Positions 9,081 through 52,885 of a stretch of 53,754 nucleotides of DNA are shown here, piece after piece (the stretch's first letter is position 1; the number at the start of each line of letters is the position of its first letter). The stretch comes from Nitrospirota bacterium (lineage in GTDB: Bacteria; Nitrospirota; Thermodesulfovibrionia; Thermodesulfovibrionales; JdFR-86). Position numbers and translations under genes: made by a program. Location of the stretch: assembly GCA_016207905.1 (NCBI GenBank), contig JACQZC010000019.1, forward strand, positions 1 through 53,754. The letters are read 5' to 3'. The notes under the pieces are model-generated. The model made no database searches. It was not told where the DNA came from and saw only the letters and a program-made list of their open reading frames with translations.

Positions 9081-10538
9081 TTAAGAAGGCATTGGGATTC
9101 CTGCTTTTTTAAGCACCCTGTTGATTTCCTCTGGCATTGTCCTCATGTCTCCTGCCAGGTAAGAGTCCTCTGCTATGAGCTTTATCACCTTTATCATGAA
9201 GTCCCTTTTCCTACTGCTCATCTTATCGAGGGTTTCGAGTTTGTGCATATAAAATTCCATAGATGCCCTTCCAAGCTCATCCCTTACCTCATTTAGTGTC
9301 ATATTCTTTGGCTTTACTACAGGCTCAACGAGATTATATTTGCTATAGTCCCGTACTTCTACATAGGGCTTAAGCTCAGGATATATCTCCGAATAAGGCC
9401 AGGGGGCTATGGCAAGGAAGAATGCAAGGTCAGGGTTATAGTGCTTTGCAAGCTCAACTGTCTGCCTCATGCTGTCCTTTGTATCATCGGGCATTCCAAG
9501 GACAAAGGAGGTCTCTGAGACGATGTCCTGTTCATTTATCAAATCCAGTGCCCTTCTGGATTCCTCCACCTTGATGTCTTTCTTGAATATATTCAGGGTC
9601 GTCTGCGAGGTGGACTCCACACCCACATATATGTGGTCAACCCCTGCCTCTTTGTACTTCCACATAATGTCTTCATCCCTCAGAATATCATCGACCCTCG
9701 TTTCAAGAAGGAGCCTTGTATCAAGCCCCCGTTTCATCTTAAGGTCAAGAATTTGCTCCCACCTTTTTCTTGAAAGCGTTGGTGTCTCATCGGAGAGCAT
9801 TACGACATTCACGCCATATCTGTCTCTTAGATATTCAAGCTCGGCTATGAAATTTTCAGGGCTTCTTGCCCTCCATCGCCTCTGCCAAAAAAGCTGTTGA
9901 CTGCAGAAACTGCACTGCTGGGAGCACCCCCTCGAGGAGCTTACAATAGCAAGGACAGAGCCTTCCATAGGTTTATATGTATAGTGATGCCAGTCTATGA
10001 GGTCCCATGCAAGGGGAAGTCCGTCGAGGTCTTTTATGAGGGCTTTCATGGCTGTTACAACTACCGTGCTACCTTTTAAGAATGCTATTGATTTTACTTT
10101 TTCAGGATTATCGCCTGCACTCAAACAGTCCATGAGCTCAACCATGGTCTCCTCGCCCTCTCCCCTTACGATGTAATCCACATAGCCATGTTGCTCCGTG
10201 AGCACCTCCTCGTAGCAGAATGTAGGATGGACATTGCCTATGACAGTGACAACCTCAGGATTGACCTGCTTGGCTAATTTTAAAACCTTCAGGGCATCTA
10301 CGATTTCTGCTGTAAAGGCAGTTGTAGCAACCACATCGGGCTTTGAGTCCATGATGCGCCTTTCGATGTCTTCGTAAGTATGCCTTAAGCTCATGGCGTC
10401 GTAGATTTCAGGCTCATAGCCTGCGCCCCTCAGAGAGCCTGCTATATATACGAAGCCCACATTGAGCCAGACCCCGGCAGATTCAACCACGCCCGAATGG
10501 TAAGGAGGGGTTATAAGCATGATTCTTTTAATTTTCAT
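9081..10538 (-). CDS. B12-binding radical SAM protein, BchE-like
   Basis: The 485-residue protein has an N-terminal cobalamin-binding-like Rossmann domain (about residues 1-150, with VVTVIGNVHPTF and YIVRGEGEETM). The radical SAM core follows, with SSSRGCSQQCSFCSQQ (CX3CX2C) near residue 205. The segment after the cluster (RSPENFIAELEYLRDRYGV, LSDETPTLSRKRW) resembles BchE, the anaerobic Mg-protoporphyrin monomethyl ester cyclase, and the wider family of B12-dependent methylases and oxidases. Substrate is unknown. It is the last gene of the haem/radical SAM cluster, 59 bases after a small membrane protein. Confidence 0.8.
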   Translation of the reverse strand: MKIKRIMLITPPYHSGVVESAGVWLNVGFVYIAGSLRGAGYEPEIYDAMSLRHTYEDIERRIMDSKPDVVATTAFTAEIVDALKVLKLAKQVNPEVVTVIGNVHPTFCYEEVLTEQHGYVDYIVRGEGEETMVELMDCLSAGDNPEKVKSIAFLKGSTVVVTAMKALIKDLDGLPLAWDLIDWHHYTYKPMEGSVLAIVSSSRGCSQQCSFCSQQLFWQRRWRARSPENFIAELEYLRDRYGVNVVMLSDETPTLSRKRWEQILDLKMKRGLDTRLLLETRVDDILRDEDIMWKYKEAGVDHIYVGVESTSQTTLNIFKKDIKVEESRRALDLINEQDIVSETSFVLGMPDDTKDSMRQTVELAKHYNPDLAFFLAIAPWPYSEIYPELKPYVEVRDYSKYNLVEPVVKPKNMTLNEVRDELGRASMEFYMHKLETLDKMSSRKRDFMIKVIKLIAEDSYLAGDMRTMPEEINRVLKKAGIPMPS

Positions 10539-10597
10539 TTTTATATTTTACCAGAGGGATTATACGAAGAGTATCTTTTTAAATCTCTTCTTTGCCC

Positions 10598-10963
10598 TCA
10601 TTTGAATATCACCGTGTACTGCCAGTAAGTGCCGAGGCCAAAGATGGAAAAAAGGATTATGTGCTTTGCCAGAAGCATCTTTCTCCTGAACCTCTCTGAT
10701 TCCTCTCCATATACGCTTCCGATGTAGGCATAGGTGAAGGTTCTGCCCACGCCGGCAACAAGCACAGTGGCAATACAAGCTATGCCGATATAGAAGAACT
10801 CTCTCTGAATTTCAGAGATAAGAGGCACAAGGGCTTCATCCTGCACCCTCTCGAGCCACCAGACCACAAACACCGTTGCCGCCCAACATCCCGCGGCAAA
10901 ATCGTGGACGAATCCCACGAAGATGGTGAATATTTTTTTCCTAAACGCTTTTTCCATCGGCAA
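10598..10963 (-). CDS. Small three-helix membrane protein, possible haem b binder
   Basis: The 121-residue protein has three predicted membrane helices: about residues 10-34 (FVGFVHDFAAGCWAATVFVVWW), 50-72, and 96-118 (KHIILFSIFGLGTYWQY). One histidine in the first helix and one at the start of the last could ligate a haem, which is an inference. It is clearly related to the gene at 13691-14257, sharing GRTF, YIG..YG and GTYWQY. The first codons overlap the upstream radical SAM gene by 23 bases. I do not recognise a named family. Confidence 0.65.
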   Translation of the reverse strand: MPMEKAFRKKIFTIFVGFVHDFAAGCWAATVFVVWWLERVQDEALVPLISEIQREFFYIGIACIATVLVAGVGRTFTYAYIGSVYGEESERFRRKMLLAKHIILFSIFGLGTYWQYTVIFK

Positions 10964-12284
10964 TAGTTTTTACCCTCATTTGCCATTCTTGGTAGGCTAT
11001 CTTCATCCCACGACGAACAGGTAATTGTCGCATCAAAGAGGCTAAATGGGTCGTGGGAAACCCAGTCAGGGGAATATCGAACAGATGCCCAAATAACTTT
11101 TTTAAACTTAGTAATTTAAGAGAAACCCGATAAAATTTTTCTTCTCTTGCCTCAGGGCTCATCTCGGGCAAGGGATGTTCGAAAACAGCATGTGCACCGT
11201 CATAAAATTCCCAGCCTTTATCTTTGAATAAGAACGGTTTATATTCCTGATAGAGATCTGTACCTGGATAGGGGACCAAAAGCGCAGGATGAACATTAAC
11301 TCCCAGTCTGTCTGCAACTTCTACTGTTCGGTCAAAGTCATCAAGGGTATCCGCTCTTCCACCGAGCATCACCGACAGCGTTATATCGATGCCGTAATCC
11401 TTTACCATCTTAACCGCATCTTCCCGATTTCTACCCATTTTTTCTGCCGCACAATACGCCTTAAGCCCCTCATCGGAAAATGTTTCCCATCCTACCCATA
11501 GTGAGATAAGTCCACTGTCTTTTGCTGACTTAAGGAGTTTATGACCCAATGGAGTCTGCACTGCCTGCAAATCGCCATAACCAAACCATTTTTTCTTCGA
11601 ACCTTTTAAGGCACTAAAGAGGTCTATGGCTCTCTGGATATTGCCTACCCAAATATTTTCGTCGGCATTTAAGTAAATACTCCCCTGGCAAGTCTCTATT
11701 TCTTCGACTACATCTTTTATGGGACGGTAACGAATAGTGTCTCCAAAAAACTTTCTTGACGAACAAAAACTACACCTATAAGGACAACCCCGCACAGTAA
11801 AGATAACACTGATTCTATATGGATGATTTGTAAGACCTTTCAAAGGAAATGGTACATTATCTAAAGGGAGAGGTTCGCCGTAATAAAAGGATTTCAAGCT
11901 TTCTCTTTGTGCATCATGTAGAACTTCGCTCCAGACCGATTCCGCCTCGCCTACAACCACCGAATCCGCATGTGCCTTTGCCTCTAAAGGCAGGGCAGTC
12001 GGATGTATCCCTCCTAAAACAACATGGATGCCCATTTTCCTTAAGGCATCGGCAAGCTTGTATCCCCATGTGGCTGTACTTGTTTTACAACTTATACCCA
12101 CTAGGTCGGCATCTATATCTTTCGGGGAAAAGGAAGAAAAATTTCCATCCACAAGTTGGATTTCTGCATCTGGCATCGTCCTCTTTGTAAGAGCAGCAAG
12201 ATATTCTAAAGTCAAGGGTGCAATTGGTGCCTTGCCAAAGGGCATTGGTGGCATAATAAGACAAACTTTCATTACTCTGGGCAT
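10941..12284 (-). CDS. B12-binding radical SAM protein (paralogue A)
   Basis: The 447-residue protein has a B12-binding-like N-terminal domain (VCLIMPPMPF, DADLVGISCKT, VVLGGIHPTALP, VVGEAESVW). A radical SAM core with RGCPYRCSFCSSRKFFG (CX3CX2C) lies near residue 170, followed by a C-terminal helical domain. It is closely similar along its whole length to the next gene upstream (12363-13682), so the two arose by duplication. Such enzymes typically methylate or rearrange unactivated carbon. ATG at 12284 or the in-frame ATG four codons later could be the start. Confidence 0.8.
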   Translation of the reverse strand: MPRVMKVCLIMPPMPFGKAPIAPLTLEYLAALTKRTMPDAEIQLVDGNFSSFSPKDIDADLVGISCKTSTATWGYKLADALRKMGIHVVLGGIHPTALPLEAKAHADSVVVGEAESVWSEVLHDAQRESLKSFYYGEPLPLDNVPFPLKGLTNHPYRISVIFTVRGCPYRCSFCSSRKFFGDTIRYRPIKDVVEEIETCQGSIYLNADENIWVGNIQRAIDLFSALKGSKKKWFGYGDLQAVQTPLGHKLLKSAKDSGLISLWVGWETFSDEGLKAYCAAEKMGRNREDAVKMVKDYGIDITLSVMLGGRADTLDDFDRTVEVADRLGVNVHPALLVPYPGTDLYQEYKPFLFKDKGWEFYDGAHAVFEHPLPEMSPEAREEKFYRVSLKLLSLKKLFGHLFDIPLTGFPTTHLASLMRQLPVRRGMKIAYQEWQMRVKTIADGKSV

Positions 12285-12362
12285 CTAAATAGCTTACATC
12301 AGCATTTGTCAGTTTTGCAAGCAAATCGCACTAAGAATCCCTCTTAAAAACACAGAGGAGAG

Positions 12363-13682
12363 CTATTTAGTAAATCGATAATTCTCCGCCTTCCAGTTTT
12401 TATATGCCTTTTCCATGGCACGTTTCATTGGAATCTGTTTCATAAGAGAAAGCAGGTGTGTCATAGGGAAACCTTTTAATCGGATGTCGAATAGATGTTT
12501 CATTATCCTTGTTTTGCTCAACAATCTGAGCGATGCCTTATAAAACATACTCTCTCTCTCTTTTGGGGTCATCGTAGGGTGTTCAAAGACAGCATGGACG
12601 CCCGCATAATATTCCCATCCTTTACCCTTAAAAAGATAAGGTTTATATTCTTCGTAAAGTTCCGTGCCAGGCAGAGGCGTAAGCAGTACAGGATGGATTC
12701 CCACTCCAAGTCTTTCTGCAAGCTCGATAATCCTGTCAAAATCTGCAGTAGTATCTTCCCTTCCGCCTATTACCACAAAGAGAGTGACATCGATACCATA
12801 ACCCTTTATTTTTTTTACGGCATCTTCCCTGTTTTTGCCCTGTTTGGCAGAGGCACGATACATATTAAGCATTCTTTGAGATAATGTCTCCCATCCAACC
12901 CATACCGAAAACAGTCCGCTATCTCTTGCCGCCTTTAAAAGCCTATCTCCGTTGGGTTCTTGAGTCGCTCTGAGGTCTCCAAACCCATACCACCACTTCC
13001 TGGTGCCCTTAGAGATCTCCGTAAAAAGCTCTATGGACCTTCTTATATCTCCACCCCAGATGTTATCATCCCCATTGAAGTAAACCTTCCCCGTACACCT
13101 TTCTATTTCTTCCACAACCTTATCGATAGGCCTGTAACGGATGGTATCGCCAAAAAACTTTCTCACGGAGCAGAAGGTACATCTGTAAGGACATCCCCTT
13201 GCAGTGAAAACTGCTCTGAACTTATAATTTCCCTTTAGAACCCCTGCAAGAGGAAAGGGTATATCATCCAATGGAAGTCTTTCGCCCCGATAAAAAGGCT
13301 TTAGTCTCCCTTTTAACGCATCATTCAGAACATCTGCCCATACCGATTCGGCTTCTCCCACAACTATAGAATCCGCATGCCCTTTTGCCTCATCCGGAAG
13401 GGCGCTTGGATGTATCCCGCCCAGCACGACCTTCTTACCGAATCTTCTTAAGTCATCTCCAAAACGATACGCCCATGTAACAGTAGCGGTCATGGAGGTT
13501 ATACCTACGAGGTCAGCATCTATATCTTCTGGCATAGGTTCACGGACATTTGCATCTATAAGGGTAAGTTTGGCATCAGGCATTGCCCTTAGTGTCAATG
13601 CCCCAAGGTATTCGAGGATTGGCGGCGCCATTGGCACCCTGCCGGAAAAAGGAAATGGTGGAGAAATCAGGCAGACCTTCAT
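12363..13682 (-). CDS. B12-binding radical SAM protein (paralogue B)
   Basis: This is the sister of the 10941-12284 protein: KVCLISPPFPF opening, DADLVGITSMTATVTW, VVLGGIHPSALP, GEAESVW, and RGCPYRCTFCSVRKFFG with the CX3CX2C cluster motif. A longer frame begins at 13760, but the added 26 residues overlap the preceding gene and do not match the paralogue, so I place the start at ATG 13682. The two paralogues share most residues around the cluster and in YRPI..VVEEIE, suggesting related reactions on the same kind of substrate. Confidence 0.8.
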   Translation of the reverse strand: MKVCLISPPFPFSGRVPMAPPILEYLGALTLRAMPDAKLTLIDANVREPMPEDIDADLVGITSMTATVTWAYRFGDDLRRFGKKVVLGGIHPSALPDEAKGHADSIVVGEAESVWADVLNDALKGRLKPFYRGERLPLDDIPFPLAGVLKGNYKFRAVFTARGCPYRCTFCSVRKFFGDTIRYRPIDKVVEEIERCTGKVYFNGDDNIWGGDIRRSIELFTEISKGTRKWWYGFGDLRATQEPNGDRLLKAARDSGLFSVWVGWETLSQRMLNMYRASAKQGKNREDAVKKIKGYGIDVTLFVVIGGREDTTADFDRIIELAERLGVGIHPVLLTPLPGTELYEEYKPYLFKGKGWEYYAGVHAVFEHPTMTPKERESMFYKASLRLLSKTRIMKHLFDIRLKGFPMTHLLSLMKQIPMKRAMEKAYKNWKAENYRFTK

Positions 13683-13690
13683 CCGAAATT

Positions 13691-14257
13691 CTACCTGAAT
13701 GCCATGGTATACTGCCAATAAGTTCCAGCAGTAAGAGCGGAAATAAGGACGATATGCCACACAAACATCATCTTTTTCCAGATTCGCTGCAGTTTCTCTG
13801 GGTCATTGCCATAGGTATTCCCTATGTATCTAAACCTGAGAGACCTTTCAATCTCAAAAGGCAAAAGAACCAGTATACAAACAAGCCCCAGATAAAATAA
13901 TTCTTTTCCTAATTCGGCGATACCGGATCTCCAATAAATTCCCGTGAAAAGAACAAGAAAAAGGATGAGATACATCCTCAGCAACTGCTTTAACCTTTGT
14001 TTCTCGCGTTTTTTGTCAAAAATCTTTTTTACATCCGTAGGGTAAAAAGTTCTCCCAGTCCCGGCAAGGAGAATAACTGTTGTGCATACCAGTCCAAGAT
14101 AAAAAAGTTCCTTATTCAGTCCGATGAGCGAGGACCGTAGCTCTGTATTTTTGAGAGACAGTCGATAGAACCAGTAGATTGCCAGCACGGTCATTGCCCA
14201 GCACCTCGTGGCAAAATTGTGCCCATGCCCGATAAAGGTTCTCAATATTTTTTTCAT
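13691..14257 (-). CDS. Membrane protein, internally duplicated relative of 10598-10963
   Basis: From ATG 14257 the 188-residue protein starts KKILRTFIGHGHNFATRCWAM. It contains the same elements as the 121-residue protein (first helix with a histidine, ELFYLGLVC, GRTF). It then repeats the ELFYLGLVC module a second time before RYIGNTYG and a final WHIVLISALTAGTYWQY helix. About five membrane helices are expected. An upstream start at 14365 is possible but would lie inside the ccsA gene and lacks similarity. It sits between ccsA and radical SAM paralogue B; histidines in helices suggest haem contact. Confidence 0.65.
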   Translation of the reverse strand: MKKILRTFIGHGHNFATRCWAMTVLAIYWFYRLSLKNTELRSSLIGLNKELFYLGLVCTTVILLAGTGRTFYPTDVKKIFDKKREKQRLKQLLRMYLILFLVLFTGIYWRSGIAELGKELFYLGLVCILVLLPFEIERSLRFRYIGNTYGNDPEKLQRIWKKMMFVWHIVLISALTAGTYWQYTMAFR

Positions 14258-14262
14258 CTTCT

Positions 14263-15087
14263 TTAAAAGTGTGTAACCCGGAAACCGCGGTGGAACATAT
14301 CCGGAACAAGAGGTATGCCCCATATAGTAATTACCATCACTGGTAAAGCTAATAAAGAATACCACGCAAGTTTTTTACCACGCCAACCAAAGGTTAGACG
14401 CAGATGCATCCATATTGCATAGACAAGCCATGAGATTAGCGCCTGGACCTCCAGCGGGTCCCAAGCCCAATAACTACCGTGGACTTGCTTTGTCCAGAGA
14501 GCACCGGAAATAATCATCAAGGTTAGCATCACAAATCCAATACTAATAAAAAGATAATTCGAATTATCCAGTTTCTTCATCTCCGGTAGCTCTTCATAAA
14601 AAGCGTCACCTGTATGTCTCGTCTTAAATAGGTAAAGCAGTCCTACTGCTCCGGCAAGTAAGACAAATCCATAAGCAATCGAGGAAGTAATTACATGTAC
14701 CCAGAACCACGGAGTATTATATTCCGGCGGAGTTATCCCGATTTCTTTTTCGGAAATCACTGCCCAGATTTGTAGAAAAATCGTAACAGGCATAATTAGA
14801 ATTCCTGCCGGACGCATAAATCTGGCGAACAAAAAAATCAAAAGAAAGATAAACACTCCTGCCCATGAAGCATCATTGATTATTTGGAAAGTAGAGAAGG
14901 AAAGATATGACGGTCGTGTCCAATAGAAAGATAAACAAAGTGTCTGGGAAAGAAAACCCAACCCGGCAAAAAATACTCCCCTGCGGAGTAAGTGCCCTTT
15001 TCTATAAATAAAGCTGAAAAGATAAAAAAGAGCACTTATTCCATAAAGACCTACCGCAGCCCAAAAGAAAATAAGAATCGTTTCCAA
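14263..15087 (-). CDS. ccsA: CcsA/ResC-type cytochrome c biogenesis protein
   Basis: CcsA (ResC/CcsB in some schemes) is the polytopic half of System II cytochrome c synthetase, which carries haem across the membrane and attaches it with ResB. The 274-residue protein has about eight membrane helices. It shows the tryptophan-rich WWD motif HGSYWAWDPLEVQAL near residue 205, an external histidine in WVHVITSSIAYG, WMHLRL after the WWD segment, and a C-terminal MFHRG that fits the second periplasmic histidine. The partner ResB lies 5 kb upstream in the same orientation. Confidence 0.88.
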   Translation of the reverse strand: METILIFFWAAVGLYGISALFYLFSFIYRKGHLLRRGVFFAGLGFLSQTLCLSFYWTRPSYLSFSTFQIINDASWAGVFIFLLIFLFARFMRPAGILIMPVTIFLQIWAVISEKEIGITPPEYNTPWFWVHVITSSIAYGFVLLAGAVGLLYLFKTRHTGDAFYEELPEMKKLDNSNYLFISIGFVMLTLMIISGALWTKQVHGSYWAWDPLEVQALISWLVYAIWMHLRLTFGWRGKKLAWYSLLALPVMVITIWGIPLVPDMFHRGFRVTHF

Positions 15088-15096
15088 TTATTCTTT

Positions 15097-15846
15097 TTAT
15101 TCTTTAATTTCCCGTATTTTTGCCACCTTATCCACTTTATCGGAAAGGGGAACAGGTCTGCTCTGGTCGATTGGCTTATTAGGTTTGACACCGGATTCCT
15201 TATTCTTCAGGAATGGCTTCATGTGCTCTGGCGAATCATAAGGTGGGAAAAAAGGTCCGGTATGGTAGCTCTTTTCCCGAAAAGGTGCCATATAGAATGT
15301 GAACACCATCACAAGGATTAAAGCAAGCTGAGAATACAAGGCAAGTTTTCTTCCCCGCCAACGAAGCCCCCAACGCAAGCCTAACCAGACCGCATAAACC
15401 ATCCAGTATCCCCAGACAAGTGCTATTATCGAGTTTCCCGCCCGTGCTACATAATCGCTGGGTAATTTCATGTGAGCCCAAAGAACAGCAAAATGAACCA
15501 TTATCGTGGCTAAAATGAACGAGACCAGCACAAACCGATAATTCAAACGGTCTAAGACCTCCAGTTCAGGCAGTTGGTCATAGGGATAACCAGTTTTCCC
15601 CTTTGCTTTAAGCAAATAAAACAATCCCATTGCTGCCGCAAGTAAGGCGAATCCATAACTGAAACCTCCACCCATAACATGCCCCCAGAGTTGCCAACCT
15701 TTGAATACCGGCGAAGGTCCAAGAGGATGACATGGAAGTAAACCTCCTAACACCATCAAACCGAAACTAACCGGCAGAATCAGCACCCCCACAGGTCTTA
15801 CTGCTCTGTAAACCAGCGAAGCACCGACAAATGCCATCATGCCCAT
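15097..15846 (-). CDS. CcsA-like protein with degenerate WWD region, C-terminal part
   Basis: This 249-residue frame aligns with ccsA from its third helix onward: WGHVMGGGFSYGFALL keeps the external histidine and REKSYHTG is in the place of the second one. The WWD motif is not recognisable (LPSDYVARAGNSIIALVWGYW), and the histidine after it is replaced (VWLGLRW). The last 50 residues form a soluble, proline- and lysine-rich tail. It is in the same frame as the 64-residue piece upstream (15880-16074), separated by one TGA and 11 further sense codons. Broken gene or read-through product are both possible. Confidence 0.7.
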   Translation of the reverse strand: MGMMAFVGASLVYRAVRPVGVLILPVSFGLMVLGGLLPCHPLGPSPVFKGWQLWGHVMGGGFSYGFALLAAAMGLFYLLKAKGKTGYPYDQLPELEVLDRLNYRFVLVSFILATIMVHFAVLWAHMKLPSDYVARAGNSIIALVWGYWMVYAVWLGLRWGLRWRGRKLALYSQLALILVMVFTFYMAPFREKSYHTGPFFPPYDSPEHMKPFLKNKESGVKPNKPIDQSRPVPLSDKVDKVAKIREIKE

Positions 15847-15879
15847 CCAGGTAGTCCCACCGACTACCTTGTCAAACGA

Positions 15880-16074
15880 TCATATACCAGTGTAATTTTG
15901 TCTAATCGCTGGCCAGAAAACATTGAGTGCGTGAACGAAAACACCTGCCCACACGAGTTTCATTGCTAAGTGTGCAAGTCTCTCCTTTTTCTGAACAAAA
16001 GCCAGGATTTGTAAGGTGGCAGCTACTCCGTAAAAGGCTGTCGCAGTCCAGAAATAAACAACTGCTGGTTCCAT
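15880..16074 (-). CDS. CcsA-like protein, N-terminal part before an in-frame TGA
   Basis: The 64-residue product (MEPAVVYFWTATAFYGVAA...) matches the first two helices of the neighbouring ccsA product (METILIFFWAAVGLYGISA...). It stops at a TGA after QNYTGI. Reading straight on in the same frame gives SFDKVVGGTTWMGMMAFVG, which joins smoothly to the downstream frame and aligns with NDASWAGVFIF of CcsA. The pair is therefore one gene with a single nonsense codon. A sigma-70-type promoter lies upstream. Confidence 0.7.
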   Translation of the reverse strand: MEPAVVYFWTATAFYGVAATLQILAFVQKKERLAHLAMKLVWAGVFVHALNVFWPAIRQNYTGI

Positions 16075-16110
16075 TTTTCCCCCCTTTCTTAAAGCATAAT
16101 ATCAATTATA

Positions 16111-16139
16111 ACAATATCATATGTCATAATGCTTGTCAA
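16111..16139 (-). promoter_or_regulatory. Sigma-70-type promoter upstream of the ccsA-like genes
   Basis: On the minus strand TTGACA (16139-16134) is followed after 17 bases by TATTGT (16116-16111), with a TATAAT overlapping just downstream. It precedes the GGGGGG-rich ribosome binding region and ATG at 16074. It would give the 16.1-9.1 kb half of the cluster its own transcript. Confidence 0.6.
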
Positions 16140-16207
16140 GTTTTTTTTCGCCTTTTGTCGAGCCAATTTAGGAATGCGATTATTCTATGTCGGGATTGGT
16201 TGTGGTG

Positions 16208-16813
16208 TTATAAAGGGTTAACCCAGACAGCCCATGGGGACCGCATCTTCACTGCTCCGCCTGAACAGAAAAGCGTATTGGCGGTGATGAAATTGAATTT
16301 CAGCGGTTCGGTCTGGTTTTCTCTTATCGCTACGGGGCCAAGCAGAATATGCGTAATCCGAGAGCCTGCCCATGTCCCACCGCGGTCGTCATAGGTGGCA
16401 AAGTTTATCTGCACCTGCCAATTCAGGTCCGTCCCATCGGCTATAGAGAAGACACTGTCGGTAAAGGTTCCGCTTTTTCTGCCACATGGGTTGTCTACCG
16501 CATTTGCAATGCTTAGTTTAATCCCATTCGTCACGGTCATTCTTATCCGCTTATATGTGCCTGCCTGTATCTGCGCCTGCTCGATAACTGCATCCGTGTC
16601 TTTTGTGAGGTCTATCTCCTTGCCTGTGGCATTGGAAAAAACTACCTGTGGGTTTGTGTCCGATGCGTCGGCCATAAATTCCACTTTGTGAACGGTTAGT
16701 TTTACGCTCGACGGACTTGTTGCACTCAGGTATACCTTTGCCAAAAGGGCGACCCCTGCTACGGCAACCGCCGCAATCAGGACAAAGAGCCATATCTTGC
16801 TTAACTTCCGCAC
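16208..16813 (-). CDS. Membrane-anchored or exported protein, DUF4382-like
   Basis: The 201-residue protein begins with a signal anchor (IWLFVLIAAVAVAGVALL) and continues as a beta-rich domain. KLTVHKVEFMADASD, EIDLTKDTDAVIEQAQIQAGTYKRIRMTV resembles DUF4382-type extracytoplasmic domains, which are of unknown function and are often found in lipoproteins. Two cysteines (PCGRKSG and FCSGG) might form a disulphide or hold a ligand. Its 5' end overlaps the stop of the flavin-barrel gene by one base. Confidence 0.5.
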   Translation of the reverse strand: MRKLSKIWLFVLIAAVAVAGVALLAKVYLSATSPSSVKLTVHKVEFMADASDTNPQVVFSNATGKEIDLTKDTDAVIEQAQIQAGTYKRIRMTVTNGIKLSIANAVDNPCGRKSGTFTDSVFSIADGTDLNWQVQINFATYDDRGGTWAGSRITHILLGPVAIRENQTEPLKFNFITANTLFCSGGAVKMRSPWAVWVNPL

Positions 16814-17292
16814 TATTTTATTTTTCTTACCGATGCGCGGTCAAAGTGCCTGAAGAAAGGATGTCTTTCGTCCTCTTGTTTTTTCCTTACCTCATAAGTC
16901 TCCTCCCTTACTTCTTCCGGAGTAATAATCCATACCCCGGCAAGTTCGGAGTCCGGACCCCGTTTCTCCCTTTCCGCAAGATAAAATTTCTTAAACAAAG
17001 GCCCTGCGTGGACATACCTGTAAGGTTTTCCTTTAATCTGCAATGTCCTGCCGCGTCTATCCCGCACGGTCAATTCCACGCTCTTATTAAACCATATGCT
17101 TCTGACTAAATTTACATTGGTCTGAGAACCTTCGAATTCCTCGCCAAAGGCTAAATTTCCGTTCTCAATTACAGTCAGTCCGTCTTTGAAGGCAGTACAT
17201 GGATTGCCTTCCTCATCAGTGGTTGCGAGAACCTTGACCGATTCGGAATCGTTAATTAAAGCGACTATTTCCTTCGACAATTTTTCAGGCAC
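16813..17292 (-). CDS. Pyridoxamine 5'-phosphate oxidase-like flavin split-barrel protein
   Basis: The 159-residue protein follows the split-barrel pattern: EIVALINDSESVKVLATTDEEGNPCTAF, then NLAFGEEFEGSQTNVNLVRS, SVELTVRDRRGRTLQIKGKPYRYVHAGP. These folds bind FMN, F420 or haem; members such as HugZ/HutZ act on haem, which is relevant given the neighbours. The ligand cannot be decided here. It overlaps the radical SAM gene upstream by eight bases, so the two products probably act together. Confidence 0.75.
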   Translation of the reverse strand: MPEKLSKEIVALINDSESVKVLATTDEEGNPCTAFKDGLTVIENGNLAFGEEFEGSQTNVNLVRSIWFNKSVELTVRDRRGRTLQIKGKPYRYVHAGPLFKKFYLAEREKRGPDSELAGVWIITPEEVREETYEVRKKQEDERHPFFRHFDRASVRKIK

Positions 17293-18604
17293 TATTATAC
17301 CTTTTCTCCGAATGGGTCCTGCTACAGTGAAGCCTGTCTAGGTCACCTGTTGGATGACACCTGTAATTGTTGAAATCAACGCTCAGGTCATACTTCCTAT
17401 GGATATCGCTTATGCCTTTCATTAGCCTCACATAATATTCGAGGGGCGCAGGCTTCTGTTTTTCCCTGTAAAACACACTGCCCTTCTCGAGACGGTGGAT
17501 GATGGCAATCGGGCCGACCCCGTGTCGGGCAAAAAATTCAGCACCTTCCAATGTGGATTCCAATGCCTCGTCAATAGTCTTAAACCCATACGGCTGTGTC
17601 AGCTCGACTCCCCCTACGAATTGGGTGCAAACATATCCCCTGCCAAATATCTCCACTGCGGACAGGGCACTGTCTATCCAGTACTGCCTGCCAAAATACT
17701 TTGCCTTTCCAGGGCACATCCATTCAAAGAGTTTTTCGTCCCATACCTCGATGTGTGGCTGATAAGTGGTGGCACCAGCCTCCTTAAGCCTGAGCAACTG
17801 CTCTCTGGAAAAAGCGCTGGCAACCATTTTCGCATAGACCTTTTCCGTGCCAAATGACTTCCTCAGCGTCGTCAATACCTTGACATACTCGTCAACTTCG
17901 TTGTCATACGGAGAGTTTCCCGTTGGGTCGGAGCCGGCAAGTAAGACGATATTCATCCATTTCCCTTCTTCTTTCAATGCCTCGTTCATCGTTTCATAGA
18001 GGTCATCTAAACATCCCTGTGTATAGCCATGCTTTTTGCGGAGTACGCGTGTGGGGAAACTGCAATATTTACAGGGCTTTTTTTCCAGCCAGAAATGGCA
18101 TCGGTTATACAGATAGACAAACAGAAGGCCAGGCAACCTGGCGCTTACCACTTTCAACATCGGCGTTCCCCTGCTGGTCTTCTTACCAAAGTATTCGGGA
18201 TAAGGCACAAAAAAGACCTCTTCCACAGGCTCGCCTCCGTCTAAAAGCCATAACCCATCGTTAATCGCATCGATGGTATAAGAGCTACCTCTTCTTTCAT
18301 ACTCTTGGGGGAATTGCAGGTACATGGGCTCCATGCCCAAAACCCAGCTTCCATCCCTGAATAATGCGCCGCCGAGCACCGGCCTGGGAGTCTTTTGTCC
18401 GAGGTCCTCCGAGGCATCATACAGAGAGCCCTCCTCTTTTGCCCTTTCCAATGCCCTCTTGGTCAGGGAAACCCCGCGCAGCTCTGCATCGAGTTTACGA
18501 ATTAACAGACGCGGAAAATCAGGATACTTCTCTACAACTTCCCCAAAACCCAATTCGTAATTATTTTCATTCACCTTTTTTTCACTCGCAACCAACTGGT
18601 GCAT
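17285..18604 (-). CDS. Radical SAM protein with CX8CX2C motif (paralogue 2)
   Basis: The 439-residue protein has an N-terminal domain of about 150 residues with no family I recognise, then LYNRCHFWLEKKPCKYCSFP, a cysteine triplet spaced CX8CX2C instead of CX3CX2C. The following LLAGSDPTGN, PHIEVWDEKLFEWMCPGK and FVGGVELTQPYGF fit a radical SAM TIM barrel (glycine-rich SAM-binding strand and later beta strands). It is a tandem duplicate of 18609-19871 and overlaps the flavin-barrel gene. The last 20 residues (SRTHSEKRYNSA) are unlike the paralogue. Confidence 0.75.
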   Translation of the reverse strand: MHQLVASEKKVNENNYELGFGEVVEKYPDFPRLLIRKLDAELRGVSLTKRALERAKEEGSLYDASEDLGQKTPRPVLGGALFRDGSWVLGMEPMYLQFPQEYERRGSSYTIDAINDGLWLLDGGEPVEEVFFVPYPEYFGKKTSRGTPMLKVVSARLPGLLFVYLYNRCHFWLEKKPCKYCSFPTRVLRKKHGYTQGCLDDLYETMNEALKEEGKWMNIVLLAGSDPTGNSPYDNEVDEYVKVLTTLRKSFGTEKVYAKMVASAFSREQLLRLKEAGATTYQPHIEVWDEKLFEWMCPGKAKYFGRQYWIDSALSAVEIFGRGYVCTQFVGGVELTQPYGFKTIDEALESTLEGAEFFARHGVGPIAIIHRLEKGSVFYREKQKPAPLEYYVRLMKGISDIHRKYDLSVDFNNYRCHPTGDLDRLHCSRTHSEKRYNSA

Positions 18605-18608
18605 TTCT

Positions 18609-19871
18609 TTATTTTATATAATCGAGCCTTGCTAAATCAACATCAGGACGGCCCGAAGAGCACCTGTAATTGTTAAAGTCCATAGTCAACTTATATCTTC
18701 TTTGAATATCGCGGACGCCCTTTGCCAGCCTCACATGATATTCAAGAGGTGCAGGTTTCTGTTTTTGTGCATAAAGTATGCTGCCTCCCACGACCCAGAG
18801 GATAAAAAAACTTGAGGCAACCCCATGACGGGCGAAAAATTCAACGCCTTCCAGTGTGGATTTTAGTCCTTCCTCAATCGTCTTAAATCCATTTGGCTGT
18901 GCCAGTTCGACCCCTCCTACGAATTGGGTGCATACATTGCCTCTGCCGAATATCTCCACAGCAGACAGGGCGCTGTCTATCCAGTACTGCCTGCCAAAAT
19001 ACTTTGCCTTTCCAGGGCATATCCATTCAAAGAGTTTTTCGTCCCATACCTCTATGTGCGGTTCGTAAGTCACTGCCCCTGCCTCCTTGAGCCTGAGCAG
19101 TTGTTCTCTCGGAAAAGCGTTGGCAACTACCCTTGCATAGACCTTTTCCGTGCCAAAAGACTTCTGAAGAGTCCTTAATGCCTTGACATACTCGTCCGCT
19201 GTATTTTCATAGGGAGAATCCCCTCGCGGGTCAGAGCCACCGCTTAAGAACAGCACCGTCCATCTGCCTTCTTCTTTCAGAGCCTCCTCTATTGTCTCGC
19301 GGAGGTCCTCGAGGCTTTCCTGCGTAAAGGCAGGTTCCCCCTCGGACTTGACGAAGCTACAATACTTACAGGGAGTTTTTCCTTCCCAGAAATAGCAATA
19401 ATTATAAAGACGGACGAATAGGCAACTGGGAAACCTGGGTGTCACCACTTTCAACATCGGCGTTCCCCTGCTGGTCTTCTTGCCAAAATATTCGGGATAA
19501 GGCACAAAAAAGACCTCTTCCACAGGCTCGCCTCCGTCTAAAAGCCATAACCCGCCGTCAACAGCATCGAGGGTATAAGGGCTCCCTCTTCTTATGAATT
19601 TTTCGGGGAATTGTAGGTACATGTTTTCCAAGCCCAAGACAACTGTTCCGTCTCTGAAGAGCGCTCCACCAAGCACTAACTTAGGGGTCTTAAGCCCAAA
19701 GTCAGCTGAGACATCATACAGGGCGCCTTCCTCTTTCGCCCTTTTTAGTGCCCTTCTGGTCAGAGTAACCCCGCGCAATGCCGTATCTATCTTACACATT
19801 ACTATGCGGGGAAAATCCGGATGTCCTTTGGCTACTTCCTTAAAACTCAACTCATGGTTGTTTTCATTCAT
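18609..19871 (-). CDS. Radical SAM protein with CX8CX2C motif (paralogue 1)
   Basis: The 420-residue sister protein has LYNYCYFWEGKTPCKYCSFV with the same CX8CX2C spacing, FLSGGSDPRGDSP for the SAM-binding strand, and PHIEVWDEKLFEWICPGK. Large blocks are nearly identical to paralogue 2, including the DNA encoding GGEPVEEVFFVPYPEYFG and KYFGRQYWIDSALSAVEIFG. Its start overlaps the resB stop by one base, linking it to haem ligation. Conservation of the odd spacing in both copies argues that it is functional. Confidence 0.75.
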   Translation of the reverse strand: MNENNHELSFKEVAKGHPDFPRIVMCKIDTALRGVTLTRRALKRAKEEGALYDVSADFGLKTPKLVLGGALFRDGTVVLGLENMYLQFPEKFIRRGSPYTLDAVDGGLWLLDGGEPVEEVFFVPYPEYFGKKTSRGTPMLKVVTPRFPSCLFVRLYNYCYFWEGKTPCKYCSFVKSEGEPAFTQESLEDLRETIEEALKEEGRWTVLFLSGGSDPRGDSPYENTADEYVKALRTLQKSFGTEKVYARVVANAFPREQLLRLKEAGAVTYEPHIEVWDEKLFEWICPGKAKYFGRQYWIDSALSAVEIFGRGNVCTQFVGGVELAQPNGFKTIEEGLKSTLEGVEFFARHGVASSFFILWVVGGSILYAQKQKPAPLEYHVRLAKGVRDIQRRYKLTMDFNNYRCSSGRPDVDLARLDYIK

Positions 19872-20506
19872 TAAAGTTTCTCTTCCTTCTCTCTGCCCCT
19901 TGCCACCTTCAAGATAGTGGTCAAGGTTATTCCTCCGAGTCCAACCCAGAAACTGCTGAAGATTATCCCTAAGCCCGGATGATAAACTACCTTCATACTC
20001 GTCCAGTAACGCACCTCATCCATGGAGAGGAAAAAATCCCCTGCCTTAACCATCTCCCCTAATACCGCCTTCCCTTTAAAAAGCTCCTCAGAGGGTTCCA
20101 TGGGTTCCATTGCATTGGGGCTGGCACGCCAGACCTGAAAAAAAACCTCTCCAGCCCTCTTTTTTTCCTCGTCAGGATAATATGCCGTCTGCAATCTGAA
20201 AACGGTGGGAAGCCCGGGCTCTTGAGGGAAATAGAAGCTCCCTGGGGCATCTGCGCTTCCACTGGTATAAAGATAAGTTTCGTCTTCCTGTTTGATGCTC
20301 TGTAAAGGCGCATATGCACCATAAAGCACCCTTCCCCCATTATCCCGTATCACAAATAATGGAGAATAACCCTCTTTATCACGGTAAAACTCAACCCCTT
20401 TGTACTTCAAGGGCTGGGTTACATAAATAATTTCTTTTTTCCCTTGATTGCCATCCGAGCCGACGGCAATCTCGTAGGCGACCCCCCTCTCTTTCCCTTC
20501 TACCAC
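19871..20506 (-). CDS. resB: ResB-like cytochrome c biogenesis protein, C-terminal part (frameshifted)
   Basis: This frame encodes the periplasmic domain and last membrane helix of ResB (YVTQPLKYKGVEFYRD, and WTSMKVVYHPGLGIIFSSFWVGLGGITL). The annotated GTG start is internal. Reading upstream in the same frame gives continuous ResB sequence (RLTEGETLSCAERSSYDW) back to a run of ten A on the plus strand at 20657-20666. ResB holds haem with CcsA and presents it to apocytochromes. One more base in that run would restore a single gene of about 360 residues. Confidence 0.8.
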   Translation of the reverse strand: MVEGKERGVAYEIAVGSDGNQGKKEIIYVTQPLKYKGVEFYRDKEGYSPLFVIRDNGGRVLYGAYAPLQSIKQEDETYLYTSGSADAPGSFYFPQEPGLPTVFRLQTAYYPDEEKKRAGEVFFQVWRASPNAMEPMEPSEELFKGKAVLGEMVKAGDFFLSMDEVRYWTSMKVVYHPGLGIIFSSFWVGLGGITLTTILKVARGREKEEKL

Positions 20507-20619
20507 ATAGGGGGGAGTATGAACCTTATGAAGATAAATCTCGCCCAGCTCTTTAAGTTTCGGGTTTTTAAAGAAACTGCCATTTCTTGCCCAATCATAA
20601 CTTGACCGCTCGGCACAAC

Positions 20620-20949
20620 TTAGAGTTTCCCCTTCGGTAAGACGAATCGCTCCCTCAAAAAAAAAAGCTGGTCGTAAACCACGCCGGCAAAGAGCATAAC
20701 GAGGCTTAAATGAAAGACTGTCGTTCCGATTCGTGACAAACGGAAAACCTTTATCCGCTTGAATGTGCAGAAAACGATATTAACTATCAAGATGACTAAT
20801 AAAAGATTAAACCATAAGGAAGAAAAAACAGCCTCCTTGCCCACATAAGGGGGCAAACTTACCCCAACAACACAGGAAATGAGGATTAATGCCAGTAAGA
20901 CTAAGGCGGTTTTTGTGGACCAAAAAAGACCGAATATCTTATTTATCAT
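20620..20949 (-). CDS. resB: ResB-like cytochrome c biogenesis protein, N-terminal part (frameshifted)
   Basis: The 109-residue frame has three membrane helices: FWSTKTALVLLALILISCVVG, FNLLLVILIVNIVFCTF, and TTVFHLSLVMLFAGVVYDQLFF, with the conserved histidine of ResB in the last. After the homopolymer the frame reads LRERFVLPKGKL and stops. With one extra T in the sense strand it would read FFFEGAIRLTEGE, the usual ResB continuation. The gene is 47 bases downstream of the propeller lipoprotein. Confidence 0.8.
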   Translation of the reverse strand: MINKIFGLFWSTKTALVLLALILISCVVGVSLPPYVGKEAVFSSLWFNLLLVILIVNIVFCTFKRIKVFRLSRIGTTVFHLSLVMLFAGVVYDQLFFLRERFVLPKGKL

Positions 20950-20996
20950 AGATTTTTAATTTACAAAAAAATTGAGATAAAAGTCAAACGATTCCT

Positions 20997-22475
20997 CTAT
21001 GGCACTGGCTCTACCTTCCACCACAATTCACTTCCAATCCGCACTCCGTAAGCAACTGATTTTCCGTCAGGGCTAAAGACCGGCGGCCAGACCTCGTCGC
21101 ATACCGGCCCCTCCTTAATCACTTTTCCTGTTTTCGCATCCGCAATGACAATAAATCGCTTGGCTTCCTCCATCGTCCCTGTCCTTGCACGATAGGTAAT
21201 ATATTTGCCATCCGGGCTCCACACAGGCGTAACCACCATATCATAGGCTGAGCCCTCCTTTACCAGAGAAGGATTGCCAACAGGAGAGATGACCATGACC
21301 CACTTGCCTTTTTTCATTGCCGGATAAGCTATCATTGTGCCATCAGGACTAAAGACAGGGGCATTTCCGACACCGTCGTAGACCGCCGCGCCTTCCTTAT
21401 CCCCGACTACACTCTGCCACTTGCCTTTTTCCATTGCAAGAAAGGCAACTGTCAATGAGTCAGGACTAAATACCGCAGGACCAATCCCTTCATAGGGTCC
21501 CCTTTCTTTTCCCTGTGCCGGAGATTCCCATAGACTTTCCACTAAATAATGTTTCCCCTCTTTGGTTGCAATATATACAATCTTTTTCCCATCAGGGCTT
21601 AAAGCAAGCCGGCCTATCGAGGCGTAAGGAAGTTCCATCTCTCTTTCTTCATTCAAGGAAAAATCGTGCAAAACAAGAGAGATTTTGCCCTCTTTTCCAA
21701 CTTCGTATATGACCCGCGAAGAATCGGCGCTGAAGGCAAATCTTCCCGATTCTTCGCCTTCCGTATAACGCCGTTCCTTGATTATCTTCCCGGCAGACAA
21801 ATCAAGAAAAAAGACGGTTCTCTTCTTATTCCCTGCTTCACGCTTATCATCGCCAAGTTCGTAAACAAGTAAACGGCCGTCAGGACTAAAAGATGGCGCA
21901 CGATAGGTATCGGGGTAAACCTTACTGCGATAAACCTCCTTCTCTCCGTCAGAGACAAATATAAACCATTTCTTTTCCTTTAAGCCCCCCACTTCGCATG
22001 CAACCAGACGGCCGTCAGGACTGAAAGAGCCGGGGGCAACCTCTTCATAATACGGCTCTTTCAATTCTTTATTGTCGATTACGAGATGCTTTTTTTCTCC
22101 CTTTTTACCGCCAAAAGCAAATCTCCGTCCATCAGGACTCCTGACTAACCAACTAACACTCTCATATGCTGGGCTTATATCTTCGCTGTCTGCTGATACA
22201 GCTACCAAAAATTCCTTATCCCTTTTTCTTGCCGTATATAAAACCAGATGTCCATCGGCACTAAAGGAAATGTTGCCCCACCTGTCATAGTCTTCTGAAA
22301 TAGTGGCTAACCTTGTCTCCTCCAGTTTTATCCCTTTGGTTTTCTCTAAACTTGTCTCTTTTGGAACCTCTTTAGGAGGGGCTTTTTCTTTACAACTGGT
22401 GATGACAAGGAGTAGACACAGAAGAAGGAGGGCAAAATGTCCGCTACTACTGGTGCGTTTCCTGCAAATGTGCAT
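20997..22475 (-). CDS. Lipoprotein with WD40-like (PD40/TolB-type) beta-propeller
   Basis: The 492-residue protein begins with a signal sequence and lipobox (LLLVITSC, acylated cysteine about residue 28). About ten PD40 repeats follow, each carrying SPDG or SADG followed by an aromatic strand (for example SPDGRLLVYEL, SPDGTMIAYPA, SPDGKSVAYGV). TolB-type propellers bind proteins in the periplasm. In this setting a scaffold role for the haem-ligation complex is possible. The start overlaps the coiled-coil gene by 29 bases, so it is the second gene of the cluster. Confidence 0.8.
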   Translation of the reverse strand: MHICRKRTSSSGHFALLLLCLLLVITSCKEKAPPKEVPKETSLEKTKGIKLEETRLATISEDYDRWGNISFSADGHLVLYTARKRDKEFLVAVSADSEDISPAYESVSWLVRSPDGRRFAFGGKKGEKKHLVIDNKELKEPYYEEVAPGSFSPDGRLVACEVGGLKEKKWFIFVSDGEKEVYRSKVYPDTYRAPSFSPDGRLLVYELGDDKREAGNKKRTVFFLDLSAGKIIKERRYTEGEESGRFAFSADSSRVIYEVGKEGKISLVLHDFSLNEEREMELPYASIGRLALSPDGKKIVYIATKEGKHYLVESLWESPAQGKERGPYEGIGPAVFSPDSLTVAFLAMEKGKWQSVVGDKEGAAVYDGVGNAPVFSPDGTMIAYPAMKKGKWVMVISPVGNPSLVKEGSAYDMVVTPVWSPDGKYITYRARTGTMEEAKRFIVIADAKTGKVIKEGPVCDEVWPPVFSPDGKSVAYGVRIGSELWWKVEPVP

Positions 22476-22773
22476 CGAGTCTTCCCTCTATAGTGCCCAT
22501 CTTATTGGCAAGCAATATATAATCTCTCTCAAAGTGGGCTACTATTGCCCTGATGTCAGCCTCCATATGCTCAAGCCGCTTGTCCATCTGCTCGAATCGC
22601 TTGTCCATCTGCTCGAATCGCTTGTCCATCTGCTCGAATCGCTTGTCCATCTGCTCGAATCGCTTGTCCATCTGCTCGAATCGCTTGTTCGTATCTTCTC
22701 TGAGGGTTCTAATCTCGTCCCTAATGGAGATCAATATTTCCACTGTTATGTCTTTTACCTTGTCTTTATCCAT
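22447..22773 (-). CDS. Short coiled-coil protein built on a heptad repeat
   Basis: The 108-residue protein has five perfect and two partial copies of the seven-residue unit FEQMDKR (residues about 32-70), a parallel or antiparallel coiled coil, then LEHMEADIRAIVAHFERDYILLANKMGTIEGRLDAH. There is no signal peptide or membrane helix. Similar heptad proteins occur widely and usually lack an assigned role. A TGGTATAAT promoter element lies upstream, making it the first gene of the minus-strand cluster. Confidence 0.65.
   Translation of the reverse strand: MDKDKVKDITVEILISIRDEIRTLREDTNKRFEQMDKRFEQMDKRFEQMDKRFEQMDKRFEQMDKRLEHMEADIRAIVAHFERDYILLANKMGTIEGRLDAHLQETHQ
22577..22681 (-). repeat. 21-bp coding minisatellite, five perfect units
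   Basis: Five identical 21-base units (plus strand CGCTTGTCCATCTGCTCGAAT) run head to tail inside the coiled-coil gene, with partial units on both sides. Because the unit is 21 bases, copy changes would keep the frame and change the coiled-coil length by one heptad. Perfect identity points to recent expansion. Confidence 0.95.
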
Positions 22774-42469: not shown

Positions 42470-43195
42470 ATGAAGAAGGTTTTAATTTTGACATTAGCAA
42501 TAAGCCTCGTAGTAGCAGGCATTGCAATGGCAACTGTCTTGAGTTCAAAGCATGACATGAGGTCAAGAGTCACAGGCAATACAACGACACAGATTTGTGT
42601 ATTCTGCCACCATCCTCACAGAGGAGTTGCGGCTGATGGCACCTCGAGGATCCTCCTTTGGAACATCAACGGTTCAGCAGCCACAAACTTTCCGACCTAC
42701 AACTCACCAACGGCACCTCTGGGTGGAGACACTAACCTCGGCACATCTGATGCAGCACAGTACTCAAGGCTTTGCATGACATGCCATGATGGTACAGTTG
42801 CAGACGGCGGCTTCATCAAAGGAACAAAGGAAGCCGGTGCATCAGCATCCTTAGGCTCACTGACAATCAACGATGCAACTGCCAACTTAGGCTCAACATT
42901 AGCTGATGACCATCCAGTTGACTTCACATACGCAAACGCAACAGGTAGTGACATAAAGGCAAAAGATGCCAGCACCACTGACCCTAAGGTTATCGGAAAT
43001 GTTACAGCAGTCAAGTATCCACTTTACAATGATGGCTCTAATGCCACAATGCAGTGTGCAACATGCCATGATGTCCACAGAGGCGAGGCAGTTGGTATTC
43101 AGTTCATGAGAGAGCTCGACGATGCTGGCGTCGCATATTCAGGCGGAGTTATCACAGCGAGCAAGATCTGTCGTGACTGTCATACCGCAAAATAA
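42470..43195 (+). CDS. Tetrahaem cytochrome c, OmcE-like in size and motif order
   Basis: The 241-residue protein has a signal peptide ending near AMA and four haem sites: CVFCHHPHRG, CMTCHDG, CATCHDVHRG and CRDCH close to the C-terminus. SSKHDMR after cleavage, ILLWNING, and DDHPVDFTY match the gene at 33267-34136. Codon choice is richer in C/G endings than most neighbours, which may reflect high expression. A strong ribosome binding site (AAAGGAGGTGA), a sigma-54 site and a clear terminator make this a self-contained, probably abundant unit. Confidence 0.9.
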   Translation: MKKVLILTLAISLVVAGIAMATVLSSKHDMRSRVTGNTTTQICVFCHHPHRGVAADGTSRILLWNINGSAATNFPTYNSPTAPLGGDTNLGTSDAAQYSRLCMTCHDGTVADGGFIKGTKEAGASASLGSLTINDATANLGSTLADDHPVDFTYANATGSDIKAKDASTTDPKVIGNVTAVKYPLYNDGSNATMQCATCHDVHRGEAVGIQFMRELDDAGVAYSGGVITASKICRDCHTAK

Positions 43196-52787: not shown

Positions 52788-52885
52788 TGGAGGGGGGTAG
52801 TGGGAATCGAACCCACACCCAGCTACTTCTTTCGCCGGGTCACAAGTTTTGCAGACCAGGAGGGACACCAGTCCCCTTGCTCCCC
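52788..52885 (-). tRNA. Selenocysteine-type (class II) tRNA-like gene with GCA anticodon
   Basis: The 98-base minus-strand segment has a T-arm GTGGG-TTCGATT-CCCAC and an encoded 3' CCA after a U discriminator. It has a long variable arm ACCCGGC/GCTGGGT (7 bp) and a D-arm GGGGAC-TGGT-GTCCCT (up to 6 bp, 4-base loop). The anticodon loop CTGCAAA has GCA (Cys) at 52850-52852. The acceptor pairs only 6 of 8 (GGGGAGCA with TACCCCCC, two A-C mismatches) and the anticodon stem has one U-U mismatch. Length, long variable arm, 6-bp D-stem and 8-base acceptor are features of tRNA-Sec. It may be a functional odd tRNA or a decaying one. Confidence 0.65.

Follow-up and report, generated by a model that had tools for sequence, protein, structure and literature searches.

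A BchE-like radical SAM enzyme encoded with System II cytochrome c maturation genes in Nitrospirota: a possible haem-modifying locus with a putative selenoprotein of the CcsA family

The isocyclic ring of bacteriochlorophyll is formed by BchE, a B12-binding radical S-adenosylmethionine (SAM) enzyme whose substrate is Mg-protoporphyrin monomethyl ester, i.e., a methyl ester. BchE has been reconstituted in vitro and forms the fifth ring of bacteriochlorophyll (PMC13142503), and for System II cytochrome c maturation the haem-ligand residues of the Helicobacter hepaticus CcsBA protein have been named (PMC11322641), which names are used throughout this work. Here, a stretch of 53,754 nucleotides (in the following referred to as the window) was analysed, which derives from contig C19 of a 2.03-Mb genome (98% complete, labelled G000) whose host was placed in the Nitrospirota. 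At positions 9081-22475 the window carries a gene cluster which combines a BchE-like protein, two further B12-binding radical SAM proteins (B and C), a pair of variant radical SAM proteins and a PNPOx-like split-barrel protein with the System II proteins ResB and CcsA (CcsA1) and with a second CcsA-like protein (CcsA2), all next to a gene for a large multihaem cytochrome. Judging from its gene content, we give about even chances to the reading that this is an elaborated cytochrome c maturation locus, in which a tetrapyrrole would be modified and subsequently attached by a dedicated System II to the adjacent multihaem cytochrome.

Sequence comparison places the BchE-like family closest to an enzyme proven to modify porphyrins, namely the authentic BchE of the chlorophyll pathway. 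Against the BchE model TIGR02026 (equivalog cut-off 481 bits) the window protein scores 411.6 bits, with the next NCBIfam family following at 154, and its class I, class II and Elusimicrobia relatives reach 412-430 bits, their next family lying at about 150-165; a BchE from the Rhodobacteraceae, serving as control, scores 828. Identity to phototroph BchE is 36-39% across most of the length; among plasmid records the best matches are BchE proteins of phototrophs (38-39.5% identity over 88-94% of the length), and the matches listed after these fall to about 22-30% identity. In a tree of 76 rows the BchE-like sequences form a single clade (100/98), to which phototroph BchE is the closest branch. 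The window protein possesses B12-binding and radical SAM domains, the CxxxCxxC motif and BchE family motifs, whereby YHxGxxExAGxW, PWP[FY] and DYxxYN, each lying outside the generic radical SAM motif, are common to the BchE-like family and to phototroph BchE (all three in 3/5 of the phototroph rows, at least one in 5/5). None of these three motifs was found in HpnR, in a cyanobacterial paralogue annotated as BchE or in the B12 radical SAM sister genes. Mg-chelatase (BchH) gave no match in the window genome or in two genomes of the host's order (G038 and G056), hence a chlorophyll pathway is unlikely in these three, and bacteriochlorophyll synthesis was rejected as a reading for the window genome. 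Among the 31 genomes with a gene of the BchE-like family, none has a BchH match above the cut-off and 26 have no match; five hold matches below it, one of these (G016) with 806 versus 829 bits, for which reason the absence of Mg-chelatase is not claimed for all carriers.

The company kept by the BchE-like genes was followed by searching 396 genomes of the phylum, whereby relatives of the B12 radical SAM proteins were found in 93 and BchE-like relatives in 66, many of them sharing contigs; 78 stretches around a chosen subset were read, with genes being called by a simple script. The tree divides the BchE-like genes into class I (47 rows), to which the window protein belongs, and class II (17 rows). 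Within 10 kb of the class I genes, CcsA was found in 34 of 47 rows, ResB in 23, a LuxE-like acyl-adenylating enzyme (PF04443) in 22, a B12 radical SAM protein and an open reading frame with at least three CxxCH motifs in 21 each, and a CopD-like small membrane protein in 19. In thirteen class I rows the sequence read holds neither CcsA nor ResB; for at least four of these (e.g., G017, G073, G143 and G171) CcsA lies farther off on the same contig, and several more are truncated where the contig ends. Where a BchE-like gene of either class occurs together with CcsA (37 loci), the two are spaced by 3 bp to 8.8 kb and share the strand in 36 cases. With a chance rate of 8%, our own generous bound assuming no more than ten CcsA-like genes in 2.5 Mb, the class I linkage corresponds to p of about 1e-26, a value which overstates independence since related genomes were counted singly. 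A chance neighbourhood was ruled out by the recurrence of the linkage, and a core consisting of the BchE-like gene, CcsA, usually ResB, a B12 radical SAM gene and multihaem cytochromes is widespread in Nitrospirota. The initial annotation of the cluster had proposed a comparison of neighbourhoods and had taken homologues usually unlinked to ccsA/resB as evidence against a modified-haem pathway; the homologues of the BchE-like and B12 radical SAM proteins turned out to be repeatedly linked with ccsA/resB and cytochromes, so that this objection does not hold for them, and those of the variant radical SAM proteins were unlinked in two Chloroflexi. Beside one class I gene (locus L142) an O-methyltransferase gene follows immediately (L142:8369-9334; PF00891 95 bits), which reaches no more than 41 bits with BchU and 25 with BchM. 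Several class II proteins measure about 580-660 aa (L155:4355-6283, L149, L159, L163-L167 and L173); in L155, the sole long class II member scanned, a C-terminal SRPBCC (polyketide-cyclase-like) domain is fused at residues 497-635, which may point to a protein that carries or binds the substrate.

Beyond the core, the cluster as a whole recurs. From ResB through the small membrane proteins, G038 and G056 have the genes of the window in identical order, except that one B12 radical SAM gene is found instead of two; the BchE-like gene follows next in G038, and the G056 contig ends at this point, with its BchE-like gene residing on another contig. Both clusters possess a free-standing SRPBCC gene, which is not present in the window. 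A further locus (L027) comprises the cytochrome, propeller, ResB, both variant radical SAM and split-barrel genes and the start of the DUF4382 gene; its contig then ends inside the cluster, and no close BchE-like match was found in its genome (G400; best match 32%). An Elusimicrobia metagenome-assembled genome (MAG; L029 and L211) carries ResB, three variant radical SAM proteins, the split barrel, one CcsA, a small membrane protein and two B12 radical SAM proteins, and further has a BchE-like protein and a 23-haem cytochrome; a search centred on this genome identified a second BchE-like gene, adjoining a ResB-like gene. Across the three closest clusters the split barrel is 82-91% identical. 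The variant radical SAM protein is rare (3/101 related genomes; six loci in the genome collection, two peptide patterns), and between families the proteins are 85-90% identical, which at first raised the suspicion of horizontal gene transfer. Since two genomes of the host's order repeat the arrangement, another phylum has a related cluster and the core linkage recurs across Nitrospirota, the gene cluster is real and its arrangement goes far beyond chance.

As to the System II proteins, CcsA1 matches PF01578 with 110 bits and carries the WWD motif in the form HGSYWAWDPLE, and when aligned to the H. hepaticus CcsBA it keeps, next to WWD, H761 (periplasmic histidine 1, P-His1) and H858 (the transmembrane haem ligand). 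A ResB gene is present as initially annotated, yet not as a single open frame: it is split into 20620-20949 and 19871-20506, with the break at a T10 tract (20640-20670, minus strand). The same tract is out of frame, by differing lengths, in G056 (T10) and L027 (T9) and in frame in G038 and L029, i.e., the ResB frame is broken in 3/5 genomes compared, for which an assembly error, phase variation or transcriptional slippage are possible reasons.

The second CcsA-like gene had been annotated from 15846; its true start is 16074, and it contains one in-frame TGA, at codon 65, which very likely encodes selenocysteine (Sec). The codon is TGA also in G056 and a Cys codon in G038 and its congener G090. 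Downstream of the TGA a hairpin with an 8-bp stem and a GGTGG loop was identified, whose stem begins 10 nt and whose loop begins 18 nt after the TGA, which falls at the distance usual for selenocysteine insertion sequence (SECIS) elements in bacteria. The two genes with TGA form this hairpin, the one with Cys does not; with single-sequence z-scores of -2.1 and -1.3, the fold alone is weak evidence. The two TGA genes are 82% identical overall, and their longest identical run (40 nt) spans the hairpin; the ratio of non-synonymous to synonymous substitution rates (dN/dS) amounts to about 0.35 ahead of the TGA and about 0.18 past it. The selenocysteine machinery, i.e., tRNA-Sec (UCA anticodon, G73), SelB and SelA, was found in the window genome, G038 and G056. 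Two separate genes or a pseudogene were ruled out by the conserved TGA, the hairpin and dN/dS. It is improbable that the TGA results from a nonsense mutation or a sequencing error, or is read as Cys: ResB in the same window is indeed frameshifted, and selC*-like tRNA-Cys genes occur (PMC7609411), some described members of this class bearing a UCA anticodon, but the same TGA is found in an independent MAG, dN/dS and the identical run over the hairpin likewise speak against it, the tRNA-Cys genes here carry GCA, and the tRNA with UCA is of the tRNA-Sec type and has G73, while selA and selB are present. One such tRNA-Cys (GCA) lies in the window itself (52788-52885, minus strand); it measures 98 nt, has a long variable arm, scores 51 bits to the tRNA-Sec family and has a second copy on contig C91, and it fits the selC* tRNA-Cys class known from Nitrospirae and others (PMC7609411). 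In CcsA2, PSDYVARAGNS replaces the WWD motif and Gly replaces H858, and P-His1 (H132) and P-His2 (H271) are kept. Sec65 and the conserved C115 would reside in successive periplasmic loops, according to the positive-inside rule. The predicted model is of low confidence (predicted local distance difference test, pLDDT, 60), its best fold matches being CcsBA (7s9y, E 0.012) and CcmF (6zmq, E 0.068).

From these data we infer a tetrapyrrole substrate, and the following reaction, order of steps and mode of delivery may be suggested. ResB and CcsA1 would constitute the dedicated System II, which would carry the tetrapyrrole across the membrane and join it to the CxxCH motifs of the adjacent cytochrome. 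Before attachment, haem or a late haem precursor would undergo a chemical change, either at the membrane or in the cytoplasm, whereby the BchE-like protein is the likeliest modifying enzyme and may oxidise or cyclise a propionate side chain, as BchE does with Mg-protoporphyrin monomethyl ester. Methyl groups or other changes may be introduced by B12 radical SAM proteins B and C and, in the subtype seen here, by the variant radical SAM pair together with the split barrel. Because the substrate of BchE is itself a methyl ester, it is conjectured that the LuxE-like enzyme of many sister clusters, or the O-methyltransferase of L142, could activate or esterify the propionate. CcsA2 would probably serve as a periplasmic selenol/thiol redox partner or haem-holding partner of CcsA1, which again is conjecture. 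On a broader scale, and with somewhat less than even confidence, it is proposed that non-phototrophic Nitrospirota and some Elusimicrobia make a haem not known before, altered in the manner of BchE (for instance with a propionate that is oxidised or ring-fused), which a dedicated System II would attach covalently to giant multihaem cytochromes, with one subtype employing a selenoprotein of the CcsA family. The initial idea of a modified-haem cluster thus gains support for the BchE-like and B12 radical SAM proteins, which are repeatedly linked to ccsA/resB and cytochromes, and is weakened for the variant radical SAM pair, which is less tied to them.

Several observations weigh against this reading of the locus. 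The BchE-like proteins all score below the BchE family cut-off, and the fork which joins them to phototroph BchE is weak (86/50), with several outgroup branches being long. The class II genes are mostly without ccsA/resB nearby (CcsA in 3/17), and about half of them (9/17) keep a B12 radical SAM partner. The LuxE-like enzyme is not part of the window cluster, and no ccsA/resB was found in the approximately 21 kb around the two Chloroflexi loci which contain the variant radical SAM and split-barrel genes. Finally, the frameshifted ResB may leave this strain with an impaired system, except if slippage allows read-through or the frameshift is an assembly error.

Among the alternatives, the one surviving best, doubtful as it is, assumes that the radical SAM enzymes modify the apocytochrome polypeptide (e.g., by C-methylation near the haem sites), a lipid or a soluble cofactor, the product of which would work with the multihaem cytochromes. 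It draws on the B12 radical SAM proteins B and C, for which no substrate-defined NCBIfam model scores above its cut-off and whose best models are TIGR04013 and the Mcr glutamine C-methyltransferase TIGR04014 (about 50-75 bits), and on the surroundings of the variant radical SAM genes in Chloroflexi. The variant proteins of the window score 177-180 bits with NF045502 (cut-off 125) and carry invariant cysteines (C159-x8-C168-x2-C171), in agreement with the two CX8CX2C proteins of the initial annotation; the predicted fold of the second (pLDDT 88) is nearest to the HydE/PylB/BioB radical SAM core, with a TM-score of about 0.4 to solved structures, and gives no clue to the substrate, and a sequence search of the PDB with the family profile gave no match. 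In two Chloroflexi MAGs (L030 and L031) only pairs of a variant radical SAM and a split-barrel gene are found (two pairs in L031), adjoining ABC transporters and nitroreductase-like genes; as ccsA/resB are missing from their surroundings, the pair is not tied to haem delivery. Against a non-haem substrate stands that CcsA has no more constant enzyme partner than the BchE-like protein, and that the closest characterised relative of this protein uses a porphyrin and has family motifs in common with it. Less probable still, and unlikely, is that the enzymes serve haem salvage or ring opening, i.e., anaerobic haem breakdown, and do not build a modified haem. Haem degraders exist among the split-barrel proteins, as the initial annotation had also noted; the cluster encodes a PNPOx-like protein, matching its Pfam model below the cut-off (20.9 versus 28.1 bits, E 5e-4), but for haem degradation no support was found, the pair also occurring away from haem genes in Chloroflexi, the conserved company consists of haem export and attachment genes and of cytochromes, and no haem-uptake genes were recognised in the cluster. 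That ordinary System II genes merely adjoin an unrelated radical SAM cluster without common function, for which the varying genes between CcsA and BchE (TPR proteins and others) could be cited, is already contradicted and has next to no probability, as the linkage recurs across families, classes and another phylum with nearly always the same strand.

The features of the locus are collected in the table below. Every gene listed at 9081-22475 lies on the minus strand, in agreement with the initial annotation, whose short overlaps were likewise recovered (e.g., at 16813, 17285-17292 and 19871). Transcription proceeds from 22475 downwards in the order TmcD-like propeller lipoprotein, ResB (two frames), two variant radical SAM proteins, PNPOx-like split barrel, DUF4382-like exported protein, CcsA2, CcsA1, small membrane protein, two B12 radical SAM proteins, second small membrane protein and BchE-like protein. 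The three B12-binding radical SAM proteins annotated at the outset all match PF02310 and PF04055; CcsA and the second CcsA-like gene, the propeller lipoprotein (PD40/TmcD-like match) and the multihaem cytochrome next door (2360 aa, 40 CxxCH), which is encoded upstream of the cluster, were found as described, and the two small membrane proteins with helix histidines are both present, the CopD-like one having H20 and H101 invariant in 22/22 relatives. Elsewhere, the window encodes a short coiled-coil protein with the tandem seven-residue repeat RFEQMDK (22447-22773, minus strand) and, on the plus strand upstream of cytochrome genes, a small protein with four CxxCH motifs and a fused uroporphyrinogen-III methyltransferase/synthase (42470-43195 and 44272-45807).

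Table. Features of the cluster and of the adjoining cytochrome gene in the window, with the evidence for each assignment.
Feature	Position	Strand	Evidence
BchE-like B12 radical SAM protein, 485 aa, class I of the Nitrospirota family	9081..10538	-	PF02310 102 bits and PF04055 94 bits; TIGR02026 411.6 bits; tree; motifs
Small 4-helix membrane protein, CopD-like below cut-off	10598..10963	-	H20, D21, R74, K100, H101 conserved in 22 relatives
B12 radical SAM protein B, 447 aa	10941..12284	-	PF04055 and PF02310 above cut-off; alignment
B12 radical SAM protein C, ATG start 13682, paralogue of B (61% identity)	12363..13682	-	PF02310 and PF04055; alignment
Small membrane protein 2, ~190 aa	13691..14260	-	start set as in relatives
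CcsA1, canonical System II haem-handling protein	14263..15087	-	PF01578 110 bits; WWD, transmembrane His (TM-His), P-His; alignment; 7s9y match
CcsA2, CcsA paralogue read through in-frame TGA, 325 aa	15097..16074	-	alignment; fold match to CcsBA/CcmF
In-frame TGA in CcsA2, proposed selenocysteine codon 65	15880..15882	-	TGA also in G056; Cys TGT in G038, G090
SECIS-like hairpin AGGTAGTC-GGTGG-GACTACCT	15849..15869	-	apical loop 18 nt past TGA
Exported DUF4382-like protein	16208..16813	-	PF14321 29.0 bits, cut-off 25
PNPOx-like split-barrel protein	16813..17292	-	PNPOx-like Pfam match 20.9 bits, cut-off 28.1
Variant radical SAM protein 1 (CX8CX2C)	17285..18604	-	NF045502 180 bits; alignment
Variant radical SAM protein 2 (CX8CX2C), paralogue of 1 (~70% identity)	18609..19871	-	NF045502 177 bits; alignment; model pLDDT 88
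ResB C-terminal part, out of frame with N-terminal part	19871..20506	-	PF05140 20.9 bits, just under cut-off; intact 354-aa ResB in G038
ResB N-terminal part; frame change at T10 tract near 20650-20665	20620..20949	-	PF05140 40 bits; tract alignment
TmcD-like/PD40 beta-propeller lipoprotein	20997..22475	-	profile matches; TmcD-like cluster recurs in 14 loci
Multihaem cytochrome, 2360 aa, 40 CxxCH, likely client	23031..30113	-	PF09698, PF14522; motif count

Neither literature joining BchE with ResB/CcsA or with multihaem cytochromes nor literature on a selenoprotein in cytochrome c biogenesis was found, most subscription journals lying outside the search. If haem is modified before its attachment, the redox potential and the spectrum of these cytochrome wires may differ from those of every c-type cytochrome studied, and reconstructions which count only CxxCH motifs would miss the modification. 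Also, a close BchE relative would then operate outside photosynthesis, which would bear on the origin of the ring-forming step of chlorophyll synthesis. A selenoprotein of the CcsA type would, as far as literature was found, found a selenoprotein family not described before and extend the use of selenium, unexpectedly, to the handling of haem.

When compared with the known System II proteins ResB-CcsA and CcsBA (7s9y; PMC11322641), the locus has in common the WWD, P-His and TM-His positions of CcsA1, a ResB homologue and an adjacent multihaem cytochrome; it differs in that its genes are embedded among radical SAM enzymes, in the frameshifted ResB and in a second CcsA that lacks WWD and an equivalent of H858 and carries Sec or Cys. 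With the variant radical SAM family NF045502 (MSMEG_0568) the two window proteins share a score above the cut-off, the CX8CX2C motif and a core nearest to the HydE/PylB/BioB structures, whereas the TM-score to solved structures is only about 0.4 and no relative in the PDB is detected by sequence. Like the bacterial selenoproteins with SECIS elements, CcsA2 combines an in-frame TGA, a hairpin 18 nt downstream with a loop opening on GG, Cys orthologues and selA, selB and tRNA-Sec in the genome; it is set apart by belonging to the CcsA family, for which the literature searched gave no counterpart among selenoproteins. With BchE (PMC13142503), finally, which is the nearest characterised relative by score, the window family shares the architecture of B12-binding and radical SAM domains, 36-39% identity and the three motifs, whereas it scores below the family cut-off, forms a clade of its own, occurs mostly without BchH and is linked to ccsA/resB and cytochromes.

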